A program made the translations under genes and the position numbers. Positions 36,636 through 63,890 of a DNA stretch of 64,000 bases are shown here, piece after piece. This DNA is from Saprospiraceae bacterium. Lineage in GTDB: Bacteria > Bacteroidota > Bacteroidia > Chitinophagales > Saprospiraceae. The DNA lies in NCBI GenBank assembly GCA_020628095.1, contig JAHDFP010000012.1, forward strand, positions 62,161-126,160, read 5' to 3'. A model generated the notes under the pieces. It saw only the letters and a program-made list of their open reading frames with translations. It searched no databases and had not been told where the DNA came from. Positions within the stretch are counted from its first letter, which is position 1. The number at the start of each line of letters is the position of its first letter.

Positions 36636-38108
36636 TCACTCGACAGTAAATGTAACTCGACGATGAGATTCATGATATGGGTCGGCAATTTGGTTTGGAT
36701 TGGGTCGAGAATAACCAACTCCTGTAGCAGATAGGAACTTAGATGGAATTCCCATATCTATTAATATTTTCCGAACTTGCCTAGCCCTACCTGTAGATAA
36801 TAAGTATATAATTTTTTCTTCACCATTAATATCTCTTGAAGCATGTCCAATCACCTGTATAACCACCTTATCGTTGTCTTTAATTATTGCCTTTATTTTA
36901 TCATAAATATCTGATATCACAATCATTGACTGAGGTTTAACTAATGAATCATCAGGATTAAAATAAATTTCGGAAGCCAGTTTATTAAGTTCTTTGTTAT
37001 CAACACTAAGTTTTTTAATATCAATAATTCTCCTAGATTCTTCATTAAGATGACTTTTTCTTTTTTCTATTTTTTCAACATTTTTGATATTTTCTTGGTT
37101 ATATAACTGGTCAAATATGTATATCCCAGAACCGGCTGTCCCAACATAAACTTTATTATTCAACCTATCTTCTTCAATAACTGTAGCCATATTACTCTGA
37201 TACAAGGATGTATTATTTAAATTCAACCTAATAGAATCAGTGGAATAAAACAGGCTGTCACCACCAATCCAATGATTAGAATTCTTATCTCTATATACGA
37301 CAGAAATTCTATTCATTCCAACATCCAAAGGTGTTCCGCTAAAAGTACTTTTTTCATTTTTGGCATGTATCATGTAAAGTTTGTTTCGTGATGCTATAAA
37401 TGCCACTTTACCTTTGGTACTTATTGAGTGAATAATAATCTTTGAACGTCTTGATGATTCCATGAAACGAATTTTTTGAATTGTTGATTTCTTAAAATTG
37501 AATCTATACAACTCAGTTCTTGAAGCTAACAATATTGAATTTGTTGATAGTTTCGCTGAATAATAAACCGTAAACCTATTATCCTTATCCAGTTTATAAG
37601 GATATTTATTAATTCTATAGAAACCATCTTTTTCAAAAACAATTACCCCCTTCTTCCTAGTGATTAAGTAAAATTTGTTCTTAACGGAAATTAGATCAAC
37701 GATTTTTAGATCGTTCCAACCTGAGTCTAGAAATACGGATTCTCCATTCAAGCAATTCACCAAAAAGCCATTACCAAGTAAACACCATATTGTGTTCAAA
37801 TGGTTATCAACCACCAATTTAATTTTTGAGGGTGAGTTATAGTTTTTGTTTATTATGTCATAATGTAAAGATTGTAGATAATCGTCTTTATAACTATACT
37901 TAAAAAGTCCGTGCCTTTTCGTTAGAATATAGACGTAATCTTTAAAAACCTTAACGTCACGGATAATTGACTTCTTGGTTATCCCTATCGTGTTATCTAA
38001 TGCGGTATATACATTTTGGTCGAGTCGAACAACCTTTTCTTGAGAGCACATTGAGTTAATCAATACGAAACTCATAATGGTTCCTAATAATGTTCTGATC
38101 TTGCTCAT
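36636..38108 (-). CDS. Secreted beta-propeller protein with C-terminal OmpA domain
   Basis: A 490-aa protein. The signal peptide (MSKIRTLLGTIMSFVLINSMCSQ) gives way to a WD40/regulator-propeller-like region (about 28-345) with repeated strand motifs (FKDYVYILTKRHGLFKYS, NKFYLITRKKGVIVFEKDGFY, NKVYVGTAGSGIYIFDQ). The C-terminal OmpA-type domain (about 375-490) has IYFNPDDSLVKPQS, VIQVIGHASRDINGEE, LSTGRARQVRKILIDMGI and SHRRVTFTVE. It probably binds peptidoglycan and presents the propeller in the periplasm or at the surface. It overlaps the upstream 297-aa gene by 53 bp. AT-rich compared with neighbours. Confidence 0.8.
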   Translation of the reverse strand: MSKIRTLLGTIMSFVLINSMCSQEKVVRLDQNVYTALDNTIGITKKSIIRDVKVFKDYVYILTKRHGLFKYSYKDDYLQSLHYDIINKNYNSPSKIKLVVDNHLNTIWCLLGNGFLVNCLNGESVFLDSGWNDLKIVDLISVKNKFYLITRKKGVIVFEKDGFYRINKYPYKLDKDNRFTVYYSAKLSTNSILLASRTELYRFNFKKSTIQKIRFMESSRRSKIIIHSISTKGKVAFIASRNKLYMIHAKNEKSTFSGTPLDVGMNRISVVYRDKNSNHWIGGDSLFYSTDSIRLNLNNTSLYQSNMATVIEEDRLNNKVYVGTAGSGIYIFDQLYNQENIKNVEKIEKRKSHLNEESRRIIDIKKLSVDNKELNKLASEIYFNPDDSLVKPQSMIVISDIYDKIKAIIKDNDKVVIQVIGHASRDINGEEKIIYLLSTGRARQVRKILIDMGIPSKFLSATGVGYSRPNPNQIADPYHESHRRVTFTVE

Positions 38109-38949
38109 ATATTAATTCAAACTTATATCTTCCCTTTTGGTATTTTTTAAATGATTGATTGTTTATGTTCTCACTTATATCTATGTAATAGGATACTTTT
38201 CCACTTTCAACAGGTATGAATTCGGAACTAAACAATTCCAAAATTGACCCATCATTTTTGGTGTAATTTAAATTAAAGGCGTAATCTGGAAACTCCGATT
38301 GAAATCCGTCTACAACAAACTCAATAAAAACCGAATCAACTAGATTTGCCCGAATTTCACTTGTGTTTTTGCTATCCAATTTCAGACGGGTGTTAGGCTT
38401 ATTTCTAAAAAGCCTATCTCTTTGGTAAGCTGTTAATTTAAATGTATAATCAAATAAAAGTTGATTCACTCGCTTTATATCAGATACACTTTCTTTAATT
38501 AGTTCTTTATGCGCCTTAGAAAGAATATTAAAGTCCTTTTCTTTCGACAAATATTTTTGTGCAGCGAAAATTGAATCTTTTTTGTGCATTTCGATTAACT
38601 GAGCAGTCCGAAGTTTGTTTTTAGCATCCCTACTATCTGCCTTAGAAATTAATAACTCATATGTATTAATAATCGAATCTTTTCTAATAAGAGCGTCATT
38701 CAAGTCTTTAATAATTCGAGACTTCAATGCGGATCTTTCTTTCTCTTTTTGATATTCATTGTCAATAGACAGTTCATAATTAATTGCCTCCTCCTCTTTT
38801 TTTTTGAGGTCATTTAATATCTTGAAATCCTCAGAGACATCAACCTTGTAAGATGAATATTTTGTTGTACTCGTTTGAGCTTTTACCATGAAAGGATGAA
38901 AACTCAGAATCACCAAATAACAAAACATTTCTTTCCTAAATATTCTCAT
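38056..38949 (-). CDS. Secreted coiled-coil protein of the envelope cluster
   Basis: A 297-aa protein with a signal peptide (MRIFRKEMFCYLVILSFHPFMVKAQ, 1-25). A helical coiled-coil region runs from about 45 to 165 (KKEEEAINYELSIDNEYQKEKERSALKSR and following). A C-terminal beta domain (about 190-297) has FVVDGFQSEFPDYAFNL and SGKVSYYIDISENI. No family is recognised. Its 3' end overlaps the OmpA-propeller gene by 53 bp and its 5' end overlaps the 238-aa gene by 14 bp. The three genes are surely co-transcribed and probably form one envelope complex. Confidence 0.7.
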   Translation of the reverse strand: MRIFRKEMFCYLVILSFHPFMVKAQTSTTKYSSYKVDVSEDFKILNDLKKKEEEAINYELSIDNEYQKEKERSALKSRIIKDLNDALIRKDSIINTYELLISKADSRDAKNKLRTAQLIEMHKKDSIFAAQKYLSKEKDFNILSKAHKELIKESVSDIKRVNQLLFDYTFKLTAYQRDRLFRNKPNTRLKLDSKNTSEIRANLVDSVFIEFVVDGFQSEFPDYAFNLNYTKNDGSILELFSSEFIPVESGKVSYYIDISENINNQSFKKYQKGRYKFELIYEQDQNIIRNHYEFRID

Positions 38950-39652
38950 ACCTTTCCTTTAATTCGTTAACACCGTAAATCAATAAATACTCTAATGAAT
39001 CTTGATTAGGTTTATTTTGTAGGACATTTATCTTCATTCCGAAATAATTCAAACTAATACTTAGTAATTTGCACCTATTAGTTTTTTTATTTTTACATTT
39101 TTCTGAATAGTTCGTTTGATATTCTCCTAGCACATTCTTTGCCTCTTCTAATTTGTCATAATAAATCTGATCATTCGAATAACTTATATTACCAGCTTCG
39201 TTTTCATCACCATAAGAGTCAATTTCACTTAATTCCTCGAACAGCTCAATCAACAATTTCTCAGCCTTTTTTTTATTCTCATCAAATTCAAACGTATTAT
39301 TGTTCATAACTTTTAACATGCCACATAGTGAGTTTCTTTTTGCCTGATAGGACTGATAAAAGGTTCTTGACAATTGACTAGAAGAAGTTTTATGTTTCAC
39401 AATTGTACCCTTTAACTCACTAAATAAATCTGTAGATAATTCGGCATTCGCGAGCTTAAATTTAGTTAAGAGAATATTTAAATCACTTTTGAGATCATTT
39501 CTCAAATCAGTATCCATTTTTTCAGTTCCAATCTCTACTACGTTCATACCATCCAAACTAGGAATAGGGCACTTTTCTTCAAGCCTGTTGTAGAGAAGAA
39601 GAACTAAAAACGCCATTAGTAATAAGGCCATTAGTAAAAAAAGTCTTTTCAT
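38936..39652 (-). CDS. Membrane-anchored protein, first gene of the envelope cluster
   Basis: A 238-aa protein with one N-terminal membrane anchor (LFLLMALLLMAFLVLLLYNRLEEKC, 4-28). A charged, mostly helical extracytoplasmic domain follows (LRNDLKSDLNILLTKFKLANAELSTD; KKKAEKLLIELFEELSEID). No family is recognised. It is the first of three overlapping minus-strand genes, and its composition is AT-rich. Confidence 0.68.
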   Translation of the reverse strand: MKRLFLLMALLLMAFLVLLLYNRLEEKCPIPSLDGMNVVEIGTEKMDTDLRNDLKSDLNILLTKFKLANAELSTDLFSELKGTIVKHKTSSSQLSRTFYQSYQAKRNSLCGMLKVMNNNTFEFDENKKKAEKLLIELFEELSEIDSYGDENEAGNISYSNDQIYYDKLEEAKNVLGEYQTNYSEKCKNKKTNRCKLLSISLNYFGMKINVLQNKPNQDSLEYLLIYGVNELKERYENI

Positions 39653-39768
39653 TTCAATATTGATTATTCGTTGTTGTAATTAATATGTTGACGTCCACAA
39701 GACTACCCACTTTCAAAAAGAGTTATAATTTGAAAAAACGTTACCCCCCATCTCTCACTATTTCCAAC

Positions 39769-39803
39769 AAAAAAAGGGATTCCACCTTTCGGCAGAATCC
39801 CTT
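39769..39803 (-). terminator. Intrinsic terminator of the Omp28 gene
   Basis: Perfect 9-bp stem AAGGGATTC (39774-39782) / GAATCCCTT (39795-39803) with a 12-nt loop. On the minus strand it is followed by a U-run. It lies 27 bp after the stop codon at 39831. Confidence 0.85.
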
Positions 39804-39830
39804 CCAACAATGATTAATCTTTTAGTTATG

Positions 39831-41894
39831 CTATCTGATGACTGAGATGCGGCTTTTGCCTAGCAACTGCTGAGATTGTCCGCGTAGCTCTATCATATAT
39901 AATCCAGCTTCTAGTCCAGTCGCTTGGACTTGTATTTTTTGTTGTCCTTTAGTCATGTAGTCTGTGTGGACTAACTGACCTTGCATGTTATAGATACTCA
40001 ATGTCGCTCTCTCAGCCACACTTTGCTCCAGACTCATCGTGAATAAATCCGATGTCGGATTAGGGAAAACAGTCGAAGAGAACTCTGGTATCTCATTGAC
40101 ATCCGTGCTCAATCCGTAGAACCAATTATGCGCACGACGCAATATCCTAAGAGCCACATCACGATCAGATAATTGCTCTAGGTTGAAACCTAAGTAGACA
40201 ACTTTATAGTTGCCATCTGTATATCTGACACCACCTACTTTAGAGCCAGAGCCATAGTTGAATATCGCTTCTGCGCCGTTGATCGGGCTGAGTTCTTCTG
40301 GGTAGATGTTGCCACCACCATAGATATCTCTTATAGTCGATGTCCCTACACCACCAAATACATTATCTCCATCGACAGGTCTTATTGACCCGTTAGAAGA
40401 AGAACCATCACTGAGATAATCAGCGTGGAGGTAGTCCTCATAGAATGCCTGCGTGACTGGCGTACCATTACCAGCAGACTCCCATGTATCCCATCCAATA
40501 TCTTGTCCCGCCACAAATAGATTACCGCCTCTATCCAAGAACGTAGACAATGACGCCACCATATCTTCTGTCAGACCTGGGAAAGTCCATCCAATATTAT
40601 AATAAACATTATTGACACCTGCTAAGGCGTTATTCTCTTGGAAACCCACAAGTGTCTGAGGCTTGGTATTATAGAATCCACGATTGTCAGCCTCTTCTAA
40701 TGCAGACATATAATTAACCTCATATCTTTCTGCTTCTGCATTGGAGATAACAAGGTCCGTGACACCACTGATAACATTGACCTGATAAGTCAATGGCTTA
40801 GACTGCGGAAAGGCTTTGGACTGCATAGTCAGTGTCGCGACACCGATACCCACTTCGCTACCAGAATTTACTTTCAGACCGATATTCATATCCGTGTTAC
40901 CGTCGACATCTACAGAAGATGCGGCGTTACCATCCACAAGAACTTGTGCTGACCAAGAGTCTGGAGCATCCAGACTAAGGCTAATGTCATAAGTATCTGC
41001 ATCTGGTAAGAAATTACTCAGTTCCATATCTACATTAGCATCCTCTCCAGCATCCGTGCTGATGTAATTAGCTCCCGGTGCAGCAGAAAGAGAAGAAACA
41101 ACGACCGTCGATCCTCCATTGGCTTTCACTTTTTTACCTGTGAATATATTCCTACGACTTTCTGATACGTAAGCCACGATGTCACAGTCCTCTATATCAT
41201 AATCCTGTGGCACTGTCCATGTGTAAGACTTGCTATACTCGCCGCCCGCTTCTGGACTGGATACCTCATCACCCCACTGACCTGTCAAGAAATGTCTTAG
41301 TATCTTATTATGCTCGTAGTTATTACTATTTCCGTTACTGTAATCTACCTGATATCCTACGACTCCATTCTGTAAGAAAGCCACATGTACAAAATTAGAA
41401 GCTGATGTATTGCCGGTATAATATAATTCTACATTGACAGTGAGTTCTCTGGTCGTTTCGTCAAAGGAAGATTCTACACCCACATTGACAGGTGATTTTT
41501 CTTCTTTGATCTCATCACCATAGACTTGCCACACGGCTCTGGATAATGCTAATCCATCATCGAAAGTCTTTCTATTGACTGTACCACTTGGATAACCGAG
41601 GACACCCATTTCTCTGGCAAGGTTATCACCAAAAGGTGTTCTGAAATCTGGCTGACCAGCCGAAGGCGTCGCATATCCCCCTGCATGCACATTGATTATA
41701 ACCACATTGTCTGGATCTGCCGCTTTCATGTTATTAGCGATCCTGTGTCCATCTGGACAATATCCACATTTGATACCTGTGAATTCTTCCAAGATGACGA
41801 CTTTATTTTCTTCACTTTTAGAGACTAAACTTTGAGCCGTAGATAAGCTCGCAAAGAGTAGAACAGAGAATAGAGTGTAAAAGGTTTTTTTCAT
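39831..41894 (-). CDS. Omp28-related T9SS protein with thioredoxin-like motif
   Basis: A 687-aa secreted protein. It has a signal peptide (1-20, STA). The Omp28-type domain (about 28-265) starts with VVILEEFTGIKCGYCPDGHRIANN; CGYC at 43-46 resembles a thioredoxin active site. It continues VIINVHAGGYATP, GYPSGTVNRK and HNKILRHFLTGQWGDEV. A beta-sandwich region (about 270-385) and a GATase-like Rossmann segment follow (about 390-600, YNIGWTFPGLTEDMVASLSTFLDRGGNLFVAGQDIGWD). The T9SS sorting domain is VFPNPTSDLF to KSRISVIR. Likely surface exposed; activity unproven. Confidence 0.85.
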   Translation of the reverse strand: MKKTFYTLFSVLLFASLSTAQSLVSKSEENKVVILEEFTGIKCGYCPDGHRIANNMKAADPDNVVIINVHAGGYATPSAGQPDFRTPFGDNLAREMGVLGYPSGTVNRKTFDDGLALSRAVWQVYGDEIKEEKSPVNVGVESSFDETTRELTVNVELYYTGNTSASNFVHVAFLQNGVVGYQVDYSNGNSNNYEHNKILRHFLTGQWGDEVSSPEAGGEYSKSYTWTVPQDYDIEDCDIVAYVSESRRNIFTGKKVKANGGSTVVVSSLSAAPGANYISTDAGEDANVDMELSNFLPDADTYDISLSLDAPDSWSAQVLVDGNAASSVDVDGNTDMNIGLKVNSGSEVGIGVATLTMQSKAFPQSKPLTYQVNVISGVTDLVISNAEAERYEVNYMSALEEADNRGFYNTKPQTLVGFQENNALAGVNNVYYNIGWTFPGLTEDMVASLSTFLDRGGNLFVAGQDIGWDTWESAGNGTPVTQAFYEDYLHADYLSDGSSSNGSIRPVDGDNVFGGVGTSTIRDIYGGGNIYPEELSPINGAEAIFNYGSGSKVGGVRYTDGNYKVVYLGFNLEQLSDRDVALRILRRAHNWFYGLSTDVNEIPEFSSTVFPNPTSDLFTMSLEQSVAERATLSIYNMQGQLVHTDYMTKGQQKIQVQATGLEAGLYMIELRGQSQQLLGKSRISVIR

Positions 41895-52957: not shown

Positions 52958-53689
52958 ATGCACCTGAGGCTTCTATTAATAGTGTTTGTGTGGCTTACTT
53001 TTTCCTGCGGAAACGACGATGGCCCACCACACGAGCAGCGATATCCCATACAAGTCATAGACGGATTATCGGGTGACCCCATTCCCAATATAGAGATAAG
53101 TCTATCCTATAATTTCGGGAGTCAGAATTTTGACTACGTACAAGGAGTAACCGATCAAAACGGCATGGTCGAACTCGTCACCCACGTCAACACTGATTCT
53201 GTAGAATCGCTCATAGACACCTTTCCCAATGCCAATCCACAATGGGTGCACCAGAACATACAAATAGATAGTGACGAACATCTATATTACGAAGCTATAC
53301 AAGATACCGCATCGCGCATTATACGATCCAGATTCGCAACAGACAAACTCATCACAGTCAAAACACACAAACCCTATCCCGTCAAAATAACGGTCGAAGA
53401 CATAACACCTATCAGAGAACGCAGCCATCTGATATGGGTGGGTCTCTACCAGTCTCACCCTGCCTTTTCTTTTGATTATACGGGGGATGCCCTTTACGTT
53501 TTTGAGCTCGGCGCTAACGATATAGAAAGCCACACTTGGCTACTCGCCGACGAAGTCGATTACCGCCTTGATTTTCGACTAACGGTCTATGATACCTTAA
53601 ACGATCAATTAGATACGCTTTCTGTGACTCCGATAGATTTCAGAGTGGATGTGAATGATACGGATCAGGAGGTGTACTATAGTTACTGA
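52958..53689 (+). CDS. Putative lipoprotein with CNA/transthyretin-like start
   Basis: A 243-aa protein when started at ATG 52958 (MHLRLLLIVFVWLTFSCGNDD), giving a lipobox (TFSC). The mature protein begins with a prealbumin-like beta domain (YPIQVIDGLSGDPIPNIEISLSYNF) and continues as a beta-rich region. No enzymatic motif. It is probably co-transcribed with the TlpA-like gene. It is the last gene before the AT-rich accessory region. Confidence 0.7.
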   Translation: MHLRLLLIVFVWLTFSCGNDDGPPHEQRYPIQVIDGLSGDPIPNIEISLSYNFGSQNFDYVQGVTDQNGMVELVTHVNTDSVESLIDTFPNANPQWVHQNIQIDSDEHLYYEAIQDTASRIIRSRFATDKLITVKTHKPYPVKITVEDITPIRERSHLIWVGLYQSHPAFSFDYTGDALYVFELGANDIESHTWLLADEVDYRLDFRLTVYDTLNDQLDTLSVTPIDFRVDVNDTDQEVYYSY

Positions 53690-53767
53690 ATGAGAAAACA
53701 GTGGAGCCGCCGATTTCCGAAGGACTTTGACAATCAACACGTTACGAGCTACTAAAATTTTACTAAA

Positions 53768-53895: not shown

Positions 53896-54010
53896 ATACA
53901 CGACGACTCACCGAGAAATCGGATTACGCAAAAAAAAATAAAGAATGTAAAAGCAAATTCTCTTTTTACATTCGACGTGTATGGTATTTTTTTTAATTGC
54001 GTAATTCGAT
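53896..54010. promoter_or_regulatory. Nested inverted-repeat region before the HTH gene
   Basis: Three pairs of arms are found. ATACACGACG (53896-53905) pairs with CGACGTGTAT (53973-53982) with one mismatch. ATCGGATTACGCA (53918-53930) plus an A-run pairs with a T-run plus TGCGTAATTCGAT (53998-54010) with one mismatch. GAATGTAAAA (53943-53952) pairs perfectly with TTTTACATTC (53964-53973). The structure ends 4 bp before the HTH gene start. It may be an operator, replication origin or recombination site of the element. Confidence 0.55.
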
Positions 54011-54014
54011 AATT

Positions 54015-54623
54015 ATGAATACCAATACCAAATTAAATTTTTTACTGCTTAACAAAGCAGATTTTCACATTGCTACATCTTTGCCTTATACTCATTCCAT
54101 TAGGCAACTTAAAAATGGAAAACTTTTAATTCAAGTTAAAATTTCCGAAACCATCTCCGATACAGATTTGGTCAAAAACATCATTGATTTCTATGGTAAG
54201 CACAATGTTGTTATTACTCATGTAAATGATTCAGCACCATTCATAGTGGTAAGTGAAATATTTTCTAATGCTGAAAGTAAAATGTTCTCGCAGGTTGTTA
54301 AAATCCAAGAAGTTGATGATAAAGTCTTGGAAATTGCTTGGCGACGAAAAATTGAAAATTTACTATTACAAATACTGTCCTTAAGTAAGTCCATACCTAA
54401 AAAGCTGGATAAACATCTATTGGAAGAGTTACGTACCGAGCATGTGAGTGAACTGACAGGTTATAGTCCAGACTACTTGTACAGAATTCCAAAGTCAGAA
54501 TTACTTTATGTGAAAAGAGGGAAGTATAGGTACTACCAGAGAAAAGATGTTCTTGACTGGATAAGTGAAAAACATCGGGAAGGAATAATTCAAGATGCCT
54601 TACTGCAAGTTGCAGAGCAATAA
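54015..54623 (+). CDS. HTH (excisionase-like) DNA-binding protein of the element
   Basis: A 202-aa protein when started at ATG 54015 (MNTNTKLNF); a TTG six codons upstream lies inside the inverted repeat. The N-terminal part is unknown. The C-terminal part (about 140-190) has VSELTGYSPDYLYRIPKSELLYVKRGKYRYYQRKDVLDWI, the helix-turn-helix plus wing seen in excisionase/MerR-like HTH_17 proteins. It likely binds the inverted repeats around its own start and regulates or directs the element. It is 23 bp upstream of the polymerase-like gene. Confidence 0.68.
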   Translation: MNTNTKLNFLLLNKADFHIATSLPYTHSIRQLKNGKLLIQVKISETISDTDLVKNIIDFYGKHNVVITHVNDSAPFIVVSEIFSNAESKMFSQVVKIQEVDDKVLEIAWRRKIENLLLQILSLSKSIPKKLDKHLLEELRTEHVSELTGYSPDYLYRIPKSELLYVKRGKYRYYQRKDVLDWISEKHREGIIQDALLQVAEQ

Positions 54624-54646: not shown

Positions 54647-55921
54647 ATGAGATTCACAATTATTCCTATTGAGGTCTATGACCTAATACTGTTACGGTTT
54701 AAGGAAACTGGTTGCAAGTTGAATAAGGACAAGTTGTTCTTCATTATCGACCTTATTATTAGGCTTGGTCGAAAACAAAAATCGGATTCTGTAAGAATAA
54801 CAAAAGAAATACTCAGGTTATATATCAGTGACTACAAGAAATATTTTACATGGTTAGAAAGTGAAAATATAATCAAAAGTGAAAGAAGTTACTTGGCGGG
54901 GAGTTTTGCACAAAGCCATGAACTTTCTAAGGACTTATATTCATTGCCAATTCAAATACCAATCACTGACTTTAAACTACTTCAACGAATAAAAAAGCAA
55001 AGTGCATTAAATCACGAAGTTTCTACTGCCGTTACGACCAAGAACTTCAAATTCTTGAAAGGCTTCTGGGAGAGTGGTCTTTTAAGAATTGATTTAGATG
55101 GAGTTGATTATACGATAAATGAAATAAAAAAATCAGGAAAAATTTCTGAGTGGGCAGAAATTTGCTGGCGACAAACTGTAATTAGAATAGATAGCAAGGA
55201 CTATAACTTTAGTATTGACAACACCAGCAATAGACTTCATACACCACTCACCACACTAAAAAAAGAACTGAGAAATCACCTAACATACAATAACCAAAAG
55301 TTGGTAGAGTCGGATATAAAAAATTCACAGTCATTCTTTGCTTCTTTATTATTAAGTATAGAAACCCTTACAAGTCGAAATGTATATGACGTCGTAAAAT
55401 CTTATAACCAAAGAGATAAACAACATATTTTGCAATTGATAAATAAGGTTAAAGAATTACAAAATGAAGATGATATTGTTGCGTTCAGAAATCTCAGTTT
55501 AAATGGTGTCCTCTATGAATATATCAAAGAAAAAATGTGTCTTGATTCCAGAAAGATTGCCAAGAAATATTTTTTTGTAGCAGTGTTTAATAAAAATAGA
55601 GCTTTAGGTCAATCCTCAGAAATGCAAGGCTTCAAAACAATGTTTCCCAATGTCTACAAAATATTTTCACATATAAAAAAAGGTGACGGATGTCACAATA
55701 CGTTAGCGATTGTACTTCAAAAGTTAGAATCAAATTTTATATTGAAATACTTATTGGAGTCTTTCAAAAGAAACTTTAAGTCAACACCATACTTAACGGT
55801 ACATGACTCAGTGATAACTTATTCATCAAAAAGTCAAAAACTTGAAAGGTTGATGAAAAACGAATTTCTTAAACGATACGGTATAGTTCCTGTTGTCGAA
55901 ACAATTCATTTGTCAGGATAA
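54647..55921 (+). CDS. Putative family A-like (TV-Pol-type) polymerase of a mobile element
   Basis: A 424-aa protein with palm motifs resembling superfamily A polymerases. Motif A-like: LVESDIKNSQSFF (219-231, Asp223), compare DYSQIE. Motif B/O-helix-like: SRKIAKKYFFVAVFNKN (301-317), compare RRxAKxxNFGxxYG. Motif C-like: YLTVHDSVI (382-390, His386-Asp387), compare VHDE. A helical segment with FKTMFPNVYKIF and LAIVLQKLESNFILKYLLE lies between B and C, as in PolA. There is no 3'-5' exonuclease and no fused primase. TV-Pol proteins of bacterial mobile elements and some viruses share these motifs. The N-terminal 200 residues, helical and KR-rich, are unassigned. The assignment rests on motif order only. 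Confidence 0.55.
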   Translation: MRFTIIPIEVYDLILLRFKETGCKLNKDKLFFIIDLIIRLGRKQKSDSVRITKEILRLYISDYKKYFTWLESENIIKSERSYLAGSFAQSHELSKDLYSLPIQIPITDFKLLQRIKKQSALNHEVSTAVTTKNFKFLKGFWESGLLRIDLDGVDYTINEIKKSGKISEWAEICWRQTVIRIDSKDYNFSIDNTSNRLHTPLTTLKKELRNHLTYNNQKLVESDIKNSQSFFASLLLSIETLTSRNVYDVVKSYNQRDKQHILQLINKVKELQNEDDIVAFRNLSLNGVLYEYIKEKMCLDSRKIAKKYFFVAVFNKNRALGQSSEMQGFKTMFPNVYKIFSHIKKGDGCHNTLAIVLQKLESNFILKYLLESFKRNFKSTPYLTVHDSVITYSSKSQKLERLMKNEFLKRYGIVPVVETIHLSG

Positions 55922-56007
55922 GAGAGTTCAATGCCTTTTGTCAGAATGTATGTTCAGTAGTATTTGTCAACATAAGAGAGTCAGTTCAATTTTGTCAGCA
56001 TTGTATA
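55918..56007. repeat. Direct repeat downstream of the polymerase-like gene
   Basis: Two imperfect copies of about 35 bp, with cores AAGAGAGTtcaa..TTTTGTCAG.ATTGTAT-like, at about 55918-55953 and 55970-56007. A third TTTGTCAACA sits between them. The first copy begins at the stop codon of the polymerase-like gene. They are possible iterons or recombination sites. Confidence 0.5.
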
Positions 56008-56240: not shown

Positions 56241-56849
56241 TTAGGTTGAGAAAGCTAAATCTAATATACTTTGCTCTAATACTTTAAGGTCTTTTTTATC
56301 CAAGTAACTTTTTTCACTGATTTCATTACTAATAATACTTAGTTCCAATCTATGACTATTCAACCAATCAAATGTGCGTATTAGATAATTGTGAAGCCTA
56401 CGAACTATGTGTACGTCTGAAATTTTTGACCATTCCAATTCATTAATGTATGGGTCTTGGGTTTCCATAAAAGTTTTTGTGTAAAGGATAGATTCCGTCT
56501 CAGAGTCCAAAGCATCTTCTAACTTCTCTTCGAGTGTAAGAATATCATTTTCATCATTAAATGATAATTCTGCAAAATGTTCACCTGCTATTCCTGCAAG
56601 ATTAAATCTGATATAATCTTCGTAAAATTTGGTATTCGGAAAATAATAGAATCGTGGTGAAATAATTCGTGATAGGGAAGTTAGAATTTCAGAGTCTCTC
56701 GGTCTTATATCAATAGATTCGGTGATGATATAAGCAGAATGACATGATGCCAAGAATTTTGCTCCAAGATAACATGACTGGATTTTTCGAATTTTCGGAT
56801 GATTTAAAGTCTCCTTGTTTTCTTCAAGCTGATTTTTGAAATTTTTCAT
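56241..56849 (-). CDS. FtsH-peptidase-like protein lacking the zinc motif
   Basis: A 202-aa helical protein. Its layout recalls the M41 (FtsH) peptidase domain. IQSCYLGAKFLASCHSAYIITESIDIRPR (24-51) sits where the AyHEaGHA helix and TIxPR would be. YIRFNLAGIAGEHFAE (79-94) resembles the LAGRAAE helix. A C-terminal helical hairpin ends in YLDKKDLKVLE. The HExxH zinc ligands are absent (LGAKF), so peptidase activity is not expected. The resemblance is by eye and could be coincidental. It is the only minus-strand gene inside the putative element and is convergent with the polymerase-like gene. Confidence 0.6.
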   Translation of the reverse strand: MKNFKNQLEENKETLNHPKIRKIQSCYLGAKFLASCHSAYIITESIDIRPRDSEILTSLSRIISPRFYYFPNTKFYEDYIRFNLAGIAGEHFAELSFNDENDILTLEEKLEDALDSETESILYTKTFMETQDPYINELEWSKISDVHIVRRLHNYLIRTFDWLNSHRLELSIISNEISEKSYLDKKDLKVLEQSILDLAFST

Positions 56850-57147
56850 GATTAAATAGTATTAAGATTTATTAAATGATGCTGCAAGCAATGGATTGAT
56901 TGCTTTCGTTACGAAAATCCTGCAATTATCACTTAGAAGCACTTAATTGTCTGTAAATCAGGCAAATACCATATACCACCATATACCACCTTATATTCTG
57001 AGTATTTGTTCATATTGATTATTAGCATAAAATTGTTTGAAGCATGACCATTTAATAGGTTTTACTTTTATAAATAGTAAAACCCAATCGTATAAATGGC
57101 TGGTGTCCAGCACGTTATGTTATTCAGATGAGGAACTAAATCCAGTT
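56850..57147. other. Non-coding region upstream of the recombinase
   Basis: About 300 bp without a gene. A tandem ATATACCACC x2 (56971-56990), preceded by a partial AAATACC copy, is the only repeat seen. The rest is AT-rich and could hold the att site or promoters of the divergent 202-aa and recombinase genes. Confidence 0.45.
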
Positions 57148-57186: not shown

Positions 57187-57816
57187 ATGGCTAAAGGACT
57201 AAAAACAACAACCCAACCGCTGAAATGGAGTAAGGCAATGATGTTGCTGGATGCCATGAGAGATAAAGCAGGTCAAGCAAATACCAGATTGATGTTAGCT
57301 TGTGGATTCTTCTTTGGACTCCGCATATCGGATATTTTGAATCTGACATGGGAGCAAATACTTAATGATGACGGTTTTGAGGTGGAAGAAGGTAAAACTG
57401 GGAAAACCAGATTTATTTCACTGGATTCAAGGTTTATAGAAATCAGGAATCAGATTTTAGAACTGATGCATCGCCCCCCGTCTGGCTTTATCTTTATTTA
57501 CAATAGAGATGGAAGTAATAAAAACAAACCCATATCAGTAACAGCAGCTAATAAAAGAATAAAAAAGATATTTGATGAGTACGAAATAAAATGTAAAAAT
57601 CCGTCCTCACATACATTGCGTAAGACAATGGGACTAAGAGTATATGAAGTCCACAATAGATGCGAAGATGCATTAATACTTCTTTCGCAAATCTTTAATC
57701 ATGGCGATATATCTGTAACCAGAAGATATATTGGATTAACGGAGAAACGGATTGCCAATGCTTACCTAAGTCTATCAAGTGGAAAAGCCATATATGAAAC
57801 AGTAAGCGAAGTGTAA
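57187..57816 (+). CDS. Short tyrosine recombinase (catalytic domain only)
   Basis: A 209-aa protein carrying the complete tyrosine-recombinase catalytic set: Arg46 (GLRISDIL), Lys70/73 in the beta-hairpin (GKTGKTR), His142-x-x-Arg145 (SSHTLRKT), His172 (FNHGDISVT) and the nucleophile Tyr181 (RRYIG). The usual N-terminal arm-binding and core-binding (SAM-like) domains, about 100-180 aa, are missing. There is no in-frame remnant upstream, so it is a native short form rather than a truncation. It probably integrates or excises the element, perhaps with the HTH protein as accessory. Confidence 0.88.
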   Translation: MAKGLKTTTQPLKWSKAMMLLDAMRDKAGQANTRLMLACGFFFGLRISDILNLTWEQILNDDGFEVEEGKTGKTRFISLDSRFIEIRNQILELMHRPPSGFIFIYNRDGSNKNKPISVTAANKRIKKIFDEYEIKCKNPSSHTLRKTMGLRVYEVHNRCEDALILLSQIFNHGDISVTRRYIGLTEKRIANAYLSLSSGKAIYETVSEV

Positions 57817-58037: not shown

Positions 58038-59807
58038 CTATAAAGTAAACTGAGGTGTACCAGAGTTTGGTTCGGTATTAGGCTTATCAATCTTCAACAT
58101 AACAGACATTGGAAAGTCAACACCCATCAAAATTGCTTCACCAGCACCTAATACAGGAAGAAAACTTAGAGTATTCTTATTGCCTGATGAACTCGCATTT
58201 GCAATTGCTTCTTTATCCCAATGATTAATTAATCGGTGAACAATAAAAGTACCAATTTGGCTTAATGTGCCAATAGGTATATCTCTCGGCATCTGTGTGG
58301 TGATGCACAAGAACAATCCATATTTACGACACTCTTTCGCTATTGAGTCAAAAGCACTTAGGTCGGTAGATTCGAAATATTCGTCTTTAACTTTTTTATT
58401 TAGAAATTGATGCGCTTCATCCACAAATAAAACTAATGGGCTTTCTTGAAATGCAGATTCTCTTGCATTTTTTAAGAGATACTTACCAATGGCATTAGCC
58501 ATTATTTCTCTTGCTTGAAAATTGAACGGTACTTTTTCAAACCCAATTCTCAATAAAGATTTTTCACCGTCAGCATCAATAAAACTATTTAGAGTATCAA
58601 CCACATTCAGCCCAGAAGGGTTTTTAAAGCCAAAGAGCTTGCTAAAACCTTCATCCGATAAAACATTGTTTACTCGCATAATTAAACTTGTACTATTCCC
58701 ATAGTTTCTTGCGTCTTGATTTTCACTCCACCTATCTCCGTTATCATAGAAGCACTCATTTCTGATTTGCTTAGATAAATTTAAAATATCAAAATTTACA
58801 GTTTCATTATCCTCAATTTCCGAAACATATTTATAGTAGCAATACTTATAGGCCTTCGTTGATTGACCTTGCTTAATATAGCATCCATTTCTAATTAGCA
58901 CATCTTCGATTACCGATGAAGTAATTTTAACCTTGAATCTATAAACATTCTCTCCTTCTTCTACAACTTGATAGTTTTGCTTATCCCGAATTAGGCAGTA
59001 AACAATTTTTAATGACTTTATGGCTTCCAGCAATATAGGTTGTTGGACTTGTCCAGAGGGTCTAAACAAAACAAATAAATCACTTACAGTTAGTCTATTA
59101 TATGGAAAAAAAGAATTTTCAATAAGTATCAGTGAATTATCAGAATAAGATTTATTATCATGAACGGCATACTCCCCAGTTGCATCTATAAGAATTGACT
59201 TTGAGTTATTGTTACATAAGCCCTCAACTAATTTACTGGTTGTAAAACTTTTACCACCACCCGTTGTACCAACAACTGCGCAATGTCTACCAAATAATCC
59301 TTGTTGAGAAATCTGAACCTTTGCTTGCTTGTCATAAGTCAATGTGCCTAAATCAATTACTGGTGCATTATTTTTATTCTTTTCCTTGACCCCAAAATTT
59401 TTGAAATAGTCCTTAATAAATTCTGTCGAACACACAAATACTTTAGCACCTATAACTGGCAAGGAGTTTAGTCCTTTATCAATTTTTTGAGGTTCAAATA
59501 AATCAAAGGATAATAAGATTTCTATTTTACCAGTCGGGTGAAAATCTTTTGTATTAAATGACCTTTCACTTAATTCATATCTTTCCTTTTCTGGTAGTGC
59601 TAATTCTAATATTTTACCCAAGAACCCAAATCTCTCACCTTCAATAACTACAAAGTTTCCTACCAGACCACCGTTAAGATTTTCTCCTTCAAAAGTGTAC
59701 GACTTTAATAAAGTAGAGGAAGGGAAATGGACATTAACGTATTGCGGTGTTACCTGATTAATGTACCCAATGAAATAGCTGTGTTCAAATGGATTCCTAT
59801 TCTTCAT
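58038..59807 (-). CDS. herA: HerA-family ATPase (DUF87) of a SIR2-HerA defence pair
   Basis: A 589-aa hexameric translocase-type ATPase. The N-terminal HAS beta-barrel (about 8-65) has GYINQVTPQYVNVHF and GNFVVIEGERFGFLGKI. Walker A is VVGTTGGGKSFTTSKLV (178-194). Walker B is LVLFVDEAHQF (about 456-466). The sensor/arginine region is ECRKYGLFLCITTQMPRDIP and HRLINHWDKEAI. SIR2-HerA is a known antiphage system in which the two proteins assemble and deplete NAD+ or degrade DNA. The start overlaps the sir2 stop by 4 bp. Its hsdR neighbour makes it part of a composite defence operon. Confidence 0.9.
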   Translation of the reverse strand: MKNRNPFEHSYFIGYINQVTPQYVNVHFPSSTLLKSYTFEGENLNGGLVGNFVVIEGERFGFLGKILELALPEKERYELSERSFNTKDFHPTGKIEILLSFDLFEPQKIDKGLNSLPVIGAKVFVCSTEFIKDYFKNFGVKEKNKNNAPVIDLGTLTYDKQAKVQISQQGLFGRHCAVVGTTGGGKSFTTSKLVEGLCNNNSKSILIDATGEYAVHDNKSYSDNSLILIENSFFPYNRLTVSDLFVLFRPSGQVQQPILLEAIKSLKIVYCLIRDKQNYQVVEEGENVYRFKVKITSSVIEDVLIRNGCYIKQGQSTKAYKYCYYKYVSEIEDNETVNFDILNLSKQIRNECFYDNGDRWSENQDARNYGNSTSLIMRVNNVLSDEGFSKLFGFKNPSGLNVVDTLNSFIDADGEKSLLRIGFEKVPFNFQAREIMANAIGKYLLKNARESAFQESPLVLFVDEAHQFLNKKVKDEYFESTDLSAFDSIAKECRKYGLFLCITTQMPRDIPIGTLSQIGTFIVHRLINHWDKEAIANASSSGNKNTLSFLPVLGAGEAILMGVDFPMSVMLKIDKPNTEPNSGTPQFTL

Positions 59808-60997
59808 TCAGATAGATTATCTTCTTGTTGATAGGATTTCAAAGTCGGGAAATGAATTGCAAAGTCTTTAAATTCCTCAGCTACCAATACTACATTCTGC
59901 CGTCTCTTTGCCTCATCGAACAACCACTTCAAATCCCCTTTTTCTTTGATACTTCTATTTACAACCATGAGTTGAAAGCCAGAGTTTTGTCCTAAGGCTT
60001 CCTTAATTGCACTTACTACATGTTTATCTCCAAAGCTAAACCCCATACATACTAATAAGACATTCTGTTGCCTTAAACTTTGATGAAATCTTGACATTAA
60101 TTCAAAGAACGGTTGTTCATATGAACTTTCATATTTGCTATCTTTTGGATAAATCATTAATGGAGAGTCTGAGTTATCCTTTTGAAAAATACCTTTATCA
60201 TCCTTTTCCCAATCAACAGAGCCATGTAATTTATAAAGATGAAAAACTCTGTTTATAAAGTTATCTTCTTCTTTTAATCTGCTTCGGTCTCTTAAAACAA
60301 TATCATGGTCAAAATTTCTACCACTAAAATATCGTGGAGATGAAAACGAAAACCCATCAATGATAACAAAGTTACCCTTTCGACCAGCTTGCTCGAATAG
60401 TGTATCATAGTTTAGAGTAAAGATTTTAGCTCTCGGTAGAGTCGATTTGCGTAAGGTTATCTTTTCAATGAATGGTATATGCGGAGCATCATTGGGAAGC
60501 AGTAATTGACACTTTTCTTTTATTTCAGTTTCAATTATAGTAATGGTGTTTTGAATGGAATCTTCTTTACCTTCCACAAAGTTCTTTGCTGCATTAGCAG
60601 TTGATAATAGTTTTTCTAAATTCTTCTCGACCTCACCACTTTCAGTAATATCTGTGTATTTTACATCTTGGATGAATTGATTAAAATTATCTGAACCAAC
60701 CTTATTTTCTACATCTTTCCAAAGCTCAGAAAGTAATCTTCCCTTTTTAGCATCTTCACCAATTTTGACAGATGAACCTGCACCAGTTAAGAAAATAATA
60801 TTTTCAAATTGACGACTTAAAAACCCTTTATAGCTACTACGTTTAAGTTCCTGACATTTCTCATCAAGTGACAGACCTTCTTCTTCATCTGTCAATTTGT
60901 ATTCTTTTTCATTCACCCAAATAGATTCAACTGGGTCATCTTTACTATTTCTTTTTATACCAATAGTATGGCTTCCTTTTATGTATAAATATTCCAT
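59804..60997 (-). CDS. SIR2-family NADase-type protein (SIR2-HerA system)
   Basis: A 397-aa protein when started at ATG 60997 (MEYLYIKGSHTIGIKRN), 4 bp after the hsdR stop; a longer frame would begin inside hsdR. SIR2 motifs: IIFLTGAGSSV (67-77, NAD loop), TLNYDTLFE (194-202), YKLHGSVDW (255-263, catalytic His258) and CMGFSFGDKHV near the C-terminus. The N-terminal 65 residues form a small beta element before the Rossmann core. It is expected to hydrolyse NAD+ or act as effector together with HerA, to which it is translationally coupled. Defence role is based on the known family. Confidence 0.9.
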   Translation of the reverse strand: MEYLYIKGSHTIGIKRNSKDDPVESIWVNEKEYKLTDEEEGLSLDEKCQELKRSSYKGFLSRQFENIIFLTGAGSSVKIGEDAKKGRLLSELWKDVENKVGSDNFNQFIQDVKYTDITESGEVEKNLEKLLSTANAAKNFVEGKEDSIQNTITIIETEIKEKCQLLLPNDAPHIPFIEKITLRKSTLPRAKIFTLNYDTLFEQAGRKGNFVIIDGFSFSSPRYFSGRNFDHDIVLRDRSRLKEEDNFINRVFHLYKLHGSVDWEKDDKGIFQKDNSDSPLMIYPKDSKYESSYEQPFFELMSRFHQSLRQQNVLLVCMGFSFGDKHVVSAIKEALGQNSGFQLMVVNRSIKEKGDLKWLFDEAKRRQNVVLVAEEFKDFAIHFPTLKSYQQEDNLSE

Positions 60998-61001
60998 AAT
61001 C

Positions 61002-63890
61002 TTAATCTTCTGGTTCAGCAGCAATACTTACCGCCCCCGAACCAATTTCATATATCTTAGGACGTGTCGGTACACCGTTAATAAATGTATCTACAAAATC
61101 AACCATCCGTTTAAGTACCCTTTCCCCAATAGTTTTACGTTCAAGGATAGATGGTTTATCTTTTAGGCTCTTTATTATATCATCCTTCAATGGTTGCTTT
61201 CCAGAAAATAGGTAATCTCTGATAATACCATCTAACTTTTCTGGTACGACTCCTTCATCCTTACATAGTTGTCTAAAGGCTGATTTCTTTTCGTCATCCC
61301 AGTATGCGTCGAAATGGTCTGGAATATCCACACTATCTTCTATGCGGGGGAGATTCTCTTGGATGAATTTTTCAATGAGTTCCTTTTTGCTTCTTAGATG
61401 GGCTTGCCCCGCCAGAGTATCAATAATCTGTCTTTGCTTTCTTTCTTTTTCTTCTGGATTGGAATCATGCAGGTCAGCAAGCAACGTAAGTATATACGCT
61501 ACATTTATTTCATCACGGTGAATCAGTTCCAACTCGAAATCCACTTCGTCCAGCACCGACACCACTTCCTTCTGATTATCTGTTCTCACCTTGTCGTATA
61601 AGTCCAGATACTTGCTCTTGTAGTTTTCAAAAGTCTGCTCATCCATCGACACGTCATCCCAATCAAAATCTGCGAAAGATTGTAACACATTCAGCGTTCG
61701 CATTATCTCCCTAAACTTAGTCACAAACTCTAATTCTTCGTTTTCTTCTTTCAGCTTATCTACTGCCTTGAATGTCGGAGCTATCTTAATTAATTCTACA
61801 TATACATCATTGAATTTATCTACTTGTGTATCATACGGGGGAATGATGATTTCTTCTATTGCTTCCTTATTCGAGAATAAGGTAATGGCTTCATCTGTTC
61901 TCTTTTTTAGATTTCGGAATGACAGAATATTACCTTGTGATTTTAATTCATTCAGTATTCGGTTGGTTCTACTATATGCCTGTATAAGTCCATGATACCG
62001 CAAATTTTTGTCAACGTAAAGCGTATTCAAAGTCTTTGAGTCAAATCCAGTCAGGAACATGTTTACGACCAATAGAATATCAATCTGCTTTTTCTTAACT
62101 CTATTGGATATGTCCTTATAATAGTTGTAGAATGACTTGCTATCTCTTGTTGTGTACTTGGTGCTGAACATCGTATTATAGTCACCAATAAATTCTTCGA
62201 GCTTGTCTCTGGTATGTTTGTTTTCTTCACCTTCGGAGAAGGCTTCACCTATATCACCATTTGCATCCTTGTCATCCTGATTGGCTTGGTAGCTAAATAT
62301 GGTTGCAATCTTATAATTGTGCTTACCTTCTTCTTTTTTCCGCTTGAAAAGCTCATAGTATTTTATCAATACATCCACGCTGCTGACACAAAATATTCCT
62401 GTAAATTCTTCTGAATGTGTTTTCCGCTTATGGTTATTGATGATATAGTCAGCAATCTTATTTAGTCTGTCATCAGATTCCAGTAGTTCTTTTTTGTCTA
62501 TTGCTTCTACTTCAATGTCTACCTCATTTTGGCTATCTGTTTTGTCCTTATATCTACCAACATATTCTATACTAAACTTTAGTACATTTTCATCTCGTAT
62601 AGCATCTGTTATAACGTACTTGTGTAGGCACTCATCAAATAAGTCTTTTGTTGTTCTTTTGCCTAAATCATTTTTTGCAGCATTATCTGCAAAGATAGGT
62701 GTACCCGTGAAGCCAAAGAGTTGGTGATTAGTAAAGAAGTCAGTAATGCGTTTATGCGTTTCCCCGAACTGCGACCTGTGACATTCATCAAAAATAAAAA
62801 CTATCTTTTTGTCCTTTTGCCCTTCCATCTTGGATAGATAGTTTTTCTTGCTGATGGCATTATTCAACTTCTGGATGGTGGTCACTATCAGCTTAGTAGA
62901 GTCGGTAAACTGGTCGACTAATATTTTAGTATTGTTGGTGCTGTCTACACTACCTTTTTTAAAGTTGTTAAACTCCTTCATAGTCTGGTAATCCAAGTCA
63001 TTTCTATCGACACAAAACACCACCTTATCCACCGATGGTAGTTGCATGATAATCTGACTTGCCTTGAAGGATGTCAGTGTTTTACCAGAGCCAGTCGTGT
63101 GCCAGATATAACCATTCTTGGTAGAGTTCTTTACTCGTTCGATAATCGACTCTACTGCATAATATTGATAAGGACGGAGTGCCATGAGTATCTTATCTGA
63201 TTCGTGTAACACGATGTATCGGGTTATCATTTTCGATACATGACATTTCTCTAAAAACTCGTTCGCAAAGTCTTTTAACTGCGAGATTCGATTGTTCTCT
63301 TTATCTGACCAGTAGAAGGTCTGTTTATAAGAAGTCTTTCTATTGTTAGCATAATACTTTGTATTCACCCCATTACTGATGACAAATAATTGGACATAAT
63401 TAAACAGTCCATAGGCTGACCAGAAAGAGTGACGTTGATAACGGTTAATCTGGTTAAAGGCTTCTTTCATTTCCAGCCCTCGACGCTTTAATTCTATCTG
63501 TATCAGCGGTAATCCATTGACCAATAGTGTAACATCATAGCGGTTTTTGTAACTACCTTCTATCGTAACTTGATTGGTGACTTGGTATTCATTCTGACAC
63601 CAATGTTCCATATTGATGAACTCGATATACTGGTTCTTGCCGTCGTCCTTTATCAGATTGAATCTATCCCTGAGAATTTTAGCCCTATCAAAGATGCTAC
63701 CCTTATTAAGATGATTTAGAATCTTATTAAATTCTGTATAAGAGAAAGTCGTCTTATTGTGCTTCTCTAACTGAGCTTTCAGATTTGCAAGTAGCTCCTT
63801 CTCGTCACCAATCTTTACGAAGTTATAACCAAGCGTCTGTAACTGCTTGACCAAATTATCTTCTAATGCCTGTTCTGATTGATAGCTCAT
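61002..63890 (-). CDS. hsdR: Type I restriction enzyme R subunit
   Basis: A 962-aa HsdR. The PD-(D/E)xK nuclease domain has YKNRYDVTLLVNGLPLIQIELKRRG (Asp119, Glu133, Lys135) with the QxxxY-like NQINRYQ. The SF2 motor has HTTGSGKT (264-271), FIFDECHRS (DECH 369-372), GFTGTP (394-399), and motif VI region GLIQAYSRTNRI. The C-terminal helical domain binds the methylase core. It cleaves unmodified DNA after translocation. Its hsdM and hsdS partners must be upstream of the window edge; only a partial ORF is visible there. It is followed by sir2 after 4 bp. Confidence 0.95.
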   Translation of the reverse strand: MSYQSEQALEDNLVKQLQTLGYNFVKIGDEKELLANLKAQLEKHNKTTFSYTEFNKILNHLNKGSIFDRAKILRDRFNLIKDDGKNQYIEFINMEHWCQNEYQVTNQVTIEGSYKNRYDVTLLVNGLPLIQIELKRRGLEMKEAFNQINRYQRHSFWSAYGLFNYVQLFVISNGVNTKYYANNRKTSYKQTFYWSDKENNRISQLKDFANEFLEKCHVSKMITRYIVLHESDKILMALRPYQYYAVESIIERVKNSTKNGYIWHTTGSGKTLTSFKASQIIMQLPSVDKVVFCVDRNDLDYQTMKEFNNFKKGSVDSTNNTKILVDQFTDSTKLIVTTIQKLNNAISKKNYLSKMEGQKDKKIVFIFDECHRSQFGETHKRITDFFTNHQLFGFTGTPIFADNAAKNDLGKRTTKDLFDECLHKYVITDAIRDENVLKFSIEYVGRYKDKTDSQNEVDIEVEAIDKKELLESDDRLNKIADYIINNHKRKTHSEEFTGIFCVSSVDVLIKYYELFKRKKEEGKHNYKIATIFSYQANQDDKDANGDIGEAFSEGEENKHTRDKLEEFIGDYNTMFSTKYTTRDSKSFYNYYKDISNRVKKKQIDILLVVNMFLTGFDSKTLNTLYVDKNLRYHGLIQAYSRTNRILNELKSQGNILSFRNLKKRTDEAITLFSNKEAIEEIIIPPYDTQVDKFNDVYVELIKIAPTFKAVDKLKEENEELEFVTKFREIMRTLNVLQSFADFDWDDVSMDEQTFENYKSKYLDLYDKVRTDNQKEVVSVLDEVDFELELIHRDEINVAYILTLLADLHDSNPEEKERKQRQIIDTLAGQAHLRSKKELIEKFIQENLPRIEDSVDIPDHFDAYWDDEKKSAFRQLCKDEGVVPEKLDGIIRDYLFSGKQPLKDDIIKSLKDKPSILERKTIGERVLKRMVDFVDTFINGVPTRPKIYEIGSGAVSIAAEPED

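Follow-up and report, generated by a model that had tools for sequence, protein, structure and literature searches.

A predicted TV-Pol-like family A polymerase in a defence-carrying element integrated at ssrA in a Saprospiraceae bacterium

Background

The TV-Pol family of family A polymerases was defined by Iyer, Abhiman and Aravind in 2008, who named Microcystis phage LMM01 as a carrier and proposed both primase and polymerase activity for these proteins (PMC2579912). CCPol, which has been placed in the TV-Pol group by others (PMC10061031), primes and extends DNA in vitro together with its partner MP, according to the sections of the reports used here (PMC7581432, PMC10061031), and CCPol-MP is the nearest tested relative of the protein described below. 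For the divPolA2 proteins of barbaviruses and vibriophages, a role in repair or in RNA synthesis was suggested by their authors, on the ground that barbaviruses already have a regular PolB (PMC11348598, in the portion of that report used here).

We analysed a 64,000-nucleotide stretch of one Saprospiraceae contig (the window), in which a sequence-only reading had pointed to a stand-alone TV-Pol-like polymerase in a small integrative element. We hold it to be fairly probable that this protein is a minimal TV-Pol-type family A polymerase of a 20.3-kb ssrA element, which would prime or copy the excised element with a host helicase and thereby retain its cargo. The locus matters for understanding how defence islands spread and are kept, and what the minimal functional core of a family A polymerase is, which was already asked in 2008 (PMC2579912). 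By title or start of abstract, no description of this branch or of its defence-island element appears among the matches listed in our literature search, outside of which most subscription papers lie.

Results and discussion

An element integrated at the 3' end of ssrA

The polymerase gene belongs to an element integrated at the 3' end of ssrA, whose integration site was located computationally by a direct repeat. A host ORF ends at 53689, at 53.7 kb the GC content drops from about 0.41 to 0.32, and the sequence AGTGGAGCCGCCGA begins at 53700. Its second copy lies in the next stretch of the contig beyond the window (L069), where it is the 3' end of the tmRNA (ARAGORN; Rfam RF00023, 116.8 bits). 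No third exact copy is present on either strand of the 77,390 bases searched. The two copies lie 20,282 bp apart and bound an element of about 20.3 kb, from 53700 to 73995, that ends 10 kb past the window:

53700-53713, no strand: left end (attL), AGTGGAGCCGCCGA, an exact 14-bp direct repeat of the ssrA 3' end
53997-54623, plus strand: HTH_17 protein, 208 aa, 23 bp before the polymerase gene on the same strand
54647-55921, plus strand: putative TV-Pol-like family A polymerase, 424 aa, from motifs, alignment, predicted structure and profile comparison
55909-56001, plus strand: four TTTGTCA repeats (55909, 55937, 55963, 55991; spacing 28/26/28), from the last polymerase codons into AT-rich DNA
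56241-56849, minus strand: ORF, 202 aa, no known family in Pfam, PHROG and PADLOC scans
56968-56990, no strand: ACCATATACC repeats, about 200 bp before the short recombinase gene
57187-57816, plus strand: short tyrosine recombinase, 209 aa (PF00589 at 19-186, nearly the whole protein; phrog_216, E 6.6e-34)
58038-59807, minus strand: HerA ATPase of a SIR2-HerA defence pair, cargo (PADLOC HerA, E 6.4e-177)
59804-61024, minus strand: SIR2 protein of the same pair, cargo (PADLOC SIR2, E 7.5e-82)
61002-63890, minus strand: HsdR, type I restriction, cargo
63914-64192: 92-aa ORF across the window end
L069, beside the tmRNA gene: full-length tyrosine integrase, 403 aa (PF00589)
L069 9982-9995 (73982-73995 in window numbering, outside the window): right copy of AGTGGAGCCGCCGA (attR core), at the ssrA 3' end

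The element is thus not the small one first proposed: apart from its size, it carries defence cargo and has a second, full-length integrase at its other end. The cargo, likewise identified by computation, includes the SIR2-HerA pair and type I restriction genes that are split, with genes for RloB and an AbiLi-like ATPase between hsdR and hsdS/hsdM (61002-63890; L069 219-5081). The remaining genes past the window are those of a GmrSD-like protein, two unknown ORFs and the 403-aa integrase.

An HTH gene (PF12728, E 2.6e-5) and a tyrosine recombinase gene (PF00589, E 1.8e-19) do stand beside the polymerase gene, as had been claimed. The HTH_17 match scored 24.8 bits, under the Pfam cut-off of 27, and 27.5 bits, just over it, in the whole-genome scan. 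The 4.2-Mb genome has eight PF00589 matches, two of them within the element, and three HTH_17 matches, one of which is the gene before the polymerase. For the 202-aa ORF we found no Pfam family at E 0.05 (at E 1 only PF07929, E 0.073), no PHROG at E 1 and no PADLOC model at E 0.001. No replicative helicase was recognised among the element's genes, all of which were scanned except the 92-aa ORF at 63914-64192, and no packaging gene, as a phage-satellite reading would call for, was recognised in the element. The mobile context and the lack of a recognised replicative helicase that had been proposed are therefore borne out by the bounding repeats and the gene scans.

The ACCATATACC-type repeats are possible integrase arm-type sites. 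Besides those near the short recombinase gene, a similar one at L069 9957-9977 stops 4 bases short of the attR core at ssrA, and the two recombinases may accordingly have such sites in common. We searched for an empty site at the 12 tmRNA loci of the genus over the Rfam cut-off, one of which is the window's own, with flanks of at most 1.5 kb and shorter ones at contig ends. Neither an empty site nor an excised circle was seen; the other 11 loci share no tested flanking gene within those flanks, and no empty site could be demonstrated because no other genome of the genus shared the flanks.

Several traits recall the CCPol-MP and A-family Pol-SSB primases, as described in the sections of the reports used here (PMC7581432, PMC10061031). 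Those systems also place a family A polymerase in an integrative element, and some of the elements (SCC-like) are likewise inserted at ssrA. In CCPol-MP, however, an OB-fold partner and a helicase are encoded adjacent to the polymerase, whereas the window polymerase adjoins a gene known by its HTH_17 match, with the unknown ORF and the recombinase as its other neighbours. SCC elements use large serine recombinases; the window element has tyrosine recombinases.

The window contains a second low-GC stretch, at 37001-40000 (0.30-0.33).

Conserved residues and predicted structure of the polymerase

The motifs on which the sequence-only reading was based are found in the ORF translation where it had placed them (SDIKNSQ at 222-228, RKIAKKYFF at 302-310 and LTVHDSV at 383-389). 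We aligned 37 homologue sequences, 17 to 28% identical to the query (alignment A2; the partial homologue at L046, the L027 homologue of genome G343, which has no ORF at the cut-off, and repeated loci were left out). Seven residues are invariant in all 37 (R196, D223, S227, Y290, K306, E361 and D387) and five are nearly so (R209 in 36, H386 in 35, Q228 in 34, R302 and Q358 in 33 each). As the motif residues are kept across the 37 homologues, the motifs are not due to chance, and the active site is conserved by this computation. Loss of Asp223 or of His386-Asp387 among homologues, which would have spoken against a polymerase, was not what the alignment showed. The position that we take to correspond to the steric gate of Pol I is Gln in 34 of the 37 and does not decide between DNA and RNA synthesis. 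A conserved Asp in the fingers belongs to the TV-Pol description; between the palm strands of A2 no Asp is invariant.

As a single query, the 424-aa protein found no significant match in Pfam, PHROGs, PADLOC or the PDB sequences. It did not match PF00476 (PolA) at E 1, nor did any of the 37 members at E 0.1, and the A2 profile reached E 0.06 at best against PDB sequences. Pfam and NCBIfam have no model for this diverse polymerase family. The absence of an exonuclease and of a visible primase that had been pointed out agrees with our scans, in which the protein matched neither family (Pfam and PHROGs at E≤1, NCBIfam at E≤0.1); nor did the Pfam, PHROGs and NCBIfam scans show any nuclease in it. 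One of the 37 members matches a GIY-YIG/NUMOD homing-endonuclease tail. The homologue at L052 7971-10031 (the same gene as that of L017) is 686 aa long with an extra C-terminal tail in the alignment, and by this tail it is the member concerned. At L006 5351-6076 a NUMOD4/HNH homing endonuclease ORF lies antisense to a polymerase homologue and overlaps its start.

We predicted the structure with AlphaFold from a 37-row alignment (pLDDT 91, pTM 0.88). The model has these parts:

residues 1-108: N-terminal domain, predicted to be winged-helix-like
R196: hairpin
D223 and D387: palm
R302xxxK306: fingers

Foldseek matched the model to 35 PDB entries at E≤1e-3; going by their titles, one is a mitochondrial RNA polymerase and the others are family A DNA polymerases. 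The best was the apicoplast polymerase (E 1.9e-6), and Klenow, Taq, Pol theta, Pol nu and T7 were also among them. A model without a palm and fingers fold would have counted against the assignment; these best matches to family A polymerases indicate the opposite. Their TM-scores are modest (0.25-0.39 on the query), which may stem from larger targets with differently set domains. In a viral structure library the best two matches, an unnamed protein and a putative DNA polymerase I, both had a TM-score of 0.72 on the query, followed by the Barba31A DNA polymerase (E 1.1e-7, TM 0.28). On alignment and model together, the 424-aa protein is computationally assigned to the family A polymerases.

The top matches also bear on whether the protein might instead be a single-subunit RNA polymerase like that of T7, transcribing the element's genes or making RNA primers, a reading to which we give a very slim probability. 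The mitochondrial RNA polymerase (8att) is the last of the 35 matches, at E 8.8e-4, and RNA synthesis was left open by the divPolA2 authors for their proteins (PMC11348598, same portion). The 34 higher-ranked matches, however, are by title DNA polymerases or DNA-polymerase complexes, and CCPol-MP primed only with dNTPs, although CCPol supplied with a primer could also incorporate NTPs (PMC7581432).

In the AlphaFold model helices precede the palm at 109-128, 131-142, 150-162 and 168-182, a candidate region for the thumb of two antiparallel helices described for TV-Pols. Residues 1-108 modelled alone (pLDDT 95) form helices followed by a two-strand wing and resemble a winged helix in the model. 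A fold search with this domain gave no PDB match at E≤1e-3, the top ones being the CodY winged helix (E 0.048) and then RecQL and SarS.

Relation to TV-Pols, divPolA2 and PolA

We compared the 37-row profile by hhalign with those of described families. The TV-Pol set comprised ten proteins: those of phage LMM01, two Polaromonas plasmids, Calothrix and Synechocystis plasmids and five genomes of the window's phylum. The phage protein, MAP_030, is our own assignment; it was chosen because it has a fitting length, is flanked by annotated transposase genes and shows a short match to the wing, and was then judged putatively to be the TV-Pol by its motifs. Against the ten TV-Pols the profile reached E 4.8e-12 in an alignment of 238 columns that extends from the N-terminal domain to include motif A, and against four divPolA2 proteins E 2.2e-12 over 177 columns; decoys (four unrelated families and three reversed profiles) gave E 0.34-0.95. 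Alignment with a five-sequence TV-Pol set including MAP_030 spans the N-terminal domain to motif C. The proposed TV-Pol relationship thus gains support from both the palm and fingers motifs and the profile comparison. Single sequences were less informative: neither profile A1 nor profile A2 picked up the TV-Pol of phage LMM01 (1.8 bits and E 1.5 with A2), hhalign of A2 against MAP_030 alone gave prob 0.5 and E 0.11, and the Polaromonas and Calothrix proteins found no relative as queries in viral scans.

The residues shared with TV-Pols are the two metal-binding palm aspartates (D223 and D387, both 37/37), the beta-hairpin Arg before the palm (R196, 37/37, aligned with SGR of TV-Pols) and the RxxxK of the fingers (R302 in 33 and K306 in 37 of 37). 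Both groups lack a nuclease domain, have a similar wing motif in the N-terminal domain and occur in mobile elements with recombinases. The window family differs in that its motif A is mostly D(I/L)KNSQP, that no D5-like helicase was recognised among the genes scanned at its loci, and that within what was searched it is confined to Bacteroidota, one Ignavibacteria genome and viral contigs. Some of the Bacteroidetes TV-Pols in the 2008 figure (PMC2579912) may fall in this branch.

The divPolA2 proteins, in the portion of the report used here, resemble the window protein in joining an exonuclease-less family A palm to an N-terminal domain, but they were reported from phages, and in barbaviruses they accompany a regular PolB, whereas the window gene lies in an integrative element (PMC11348598). 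Their motif C is FDE in the member read, against LTVHDSV in the window protein. TV-Pol and divPolA2 profiles barely match each other directly (E 0.023), and the window family links the two. Against 24 PolA sequences the profile gave prob 1.7 and E 0.03, not significant alone; in this weak alignment the R/K of the fingers, a Q and the HD of motif C are in register. The window protein differs from PolA in having neither a PF00476 nor an exonuclease match, and the host genome's own PolA is encoded elsewhere.

In a tree of 51 rows, which is unrooted, has long branches and leaves the 2008 Bacteroidetes TV-Pols outside, the ten TV-Pols split from the 37 homologues plus divPolA2 at 100/100, and divPolA2 falls inside the family's diversity, joining the L050 homologue (87/73) and not the window protein.

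Homologues and their surroundings

Homologues occur in four of 60 relatives and 13 of 395 phylum genomes (own genome included in both), with ten loci in genome contigs and 13 in viral contigs; the family occurs in integrative elements of Bacteroidota. We compared 42 loci, of which three (L067, L043, L048) repeat others and were dropped, leaving 39 loci of 5.6 to 34.4 kb (540,643 bases). Tyrosine recombinases are found in 17 of the 39, to be compared with the eight PF00589 matches, by a different model, in the whole 4.2-Mb genome; serine-recombinase profile matches are found in eight of the loci, one a 52-aa fragment. The expected constant association with a short recombinase did not hold: frames of 205-225 aa occur only in the window, L010 and L050, a further one in L041 is truncated where its contig ends, and in 13 of the 17 loci with tyrosine recombinases all of these are longer. 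HTH_17-like genes adjoin the polymerase gene in ten loci, all on the same strand and within 305 bp, a count biased by its profile, which was made from eight HTH genes chosen beside the polymerase; the six of these scanned with Pfam all match HTH_17 at E≤0.001, and those of the window and L055 lie below the cut-off. An AAA_24 ATPase and DUF3871 are each found in six of 39 loci, together in five (L005, L051, L052, L060, L066), which suggests that the pair is a DNA-handling partner set.

Could the polymerase be one more cargo gene, a defence or counter-defence protein acting on phage nucleic acid? It sits in a 20-kb island of defence genes, and two genes named by Pfam on one member each recur among the loci, a C5-methylase-like gene (cluster c6: L013, L052, L059, L061, L062) and an HsdM-like gene (cluster c5: five loci, window included). 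We consider this very improbable, however: the protein matches no PADLOC model, and its gene keeps company with HTH and recombinase genes near the att end, with recombinases as the commoner neighbours (17 of 39 loci).

Repeat-bounded elements were sought at the 13 loci bearing tRNA genes. At L052 a 40-bp repeat at tRNA-Arg bounds an element of about 10.8 kb round the polymerase gene, and at L068, of the same genus, a 21-bp repeat at tRNA-Asp bounds one of about 9.2 kb. L064 gave 12 bp only, and nine loci gave none. A candidate repeat at L051 was rejected as an att site, its match being the neighbouring tRNA-Met. No helicase was recognised among the seven L068 genes scanned (a 104-aa ORF lay outside the Pfam scan), and no D5 helicase among the genes scanned at the homologue loci (this ORF and an 83-aa ORF of L052 lay outside the Pfam scan).

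Other homologues lie in different settings. In L040, L042 and L047 the contig also encodes terminase, portal or tail proteins. Further homologues come from six records of uncultured phages, 595-735 kb in size, and from a Hymenobacter plasmid on which a replication initiation protein (Rep) is separately annotated. With this Rep present, we dropped the idea that the polymerase is the plasmid's sole replicon gene. The plasmid and the phage-like contigs count against a replication role, as does the fact that the TTTGTCA array is not common to homologues. To be set against the favoured explanation are also the replicative helicase not recognised among the element's scanned genes, the empty site and circle not seen, the PolA profile score and the N-terminal domain's lack of a significant PDB match. 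The plasmid and the phage-like contigs favour the main rival, in which the protein would serve mobile DNA as an auxiliary polymerase for repair or gap filling, acting after integration, transfer or host attack and not replicating the element. That divPolA2 branches within the family's diversity (87/73) points the same way, as does the repair role suggested by its authors on account of PolB (PMC11348598, same portion). Set against this, no other replication gene was recognised among the scanned genes of the three repeat-bounded elements (window, L052, L068), and we judge the repair reading rather unlikely.

Proposed role and candidate origin

In the replication role that we favour, a protein built of a predicted DNA-binding-like winged helix, then thumb, palm and fingers, with no nuclease, would serve an element that the tyrosine integrase brings into the 3' end of ssrA. 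After excision the polymerase would bind element DNA and make or extend a primer, probably also as a primase, and would then copy the excised circle with a helicase from host factors. Such copying might protect the defence cargo from loss. In favour of this explanation we count the invariant active-site residues, the PDB matches of the model, the TV-Pol profile match, the direct repeats at tRNA or tmRNA genes (window, L052, L068), the tyrosine recombinases at 17 of 39 loci, the priming by CCPol-MP in vitro and a TV-Pol gene next to RepA on a Polaromonas plasmid. What we infer is that the product is DNA and not RNA, that the protein primes, that its N-terminal domain recognises an origin, and that the element is excised and replicates as a circle. 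With two active-site aspartates and a mapped att repeat, the proposal is testable.

The TTTGTCA array is the only such cluster in the 64-kb window, and of 5000 segments simulated by a Markov model, 46 had at least as many repeats as were observed. Across the 39 loci (540,643 bases) repeat clusters are not enriched near the polymerase gene: of 17 clusters, two lie within 600 bases (window, L063) and one inside it (L011). As the array is not shared by homologues, an origin there, or an operator, is only a lead. The array also enters a more ambitious reading, in which the protein would be initiator, primase and polymerase in one piece, its winged helix binding the repeats and its palm starting and copying the excised island with no helicase from the element. 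We regard this as quite improbable; if true, few self-replication modules would be smaller, and it would explain how defence islands outlast excision.

Short-repeat clusters also lie between integrase and tRNA genes at L051 (6571-6679, GGTACAC x5) and L066 (10601-10756, AAAAGTG x4), placed as expected of integrase arm-type sites.

On the 7.2-kb Polaromonas plasmid pW9NP1 (L126), the product of a TV-Pol gene is annotated as hypothetical. The gene stands 10 bp upstream of one annotated RepA, with a ParA gene nearby, which makes this plasmid a small natural replicon suited to studying TV-Pol function.
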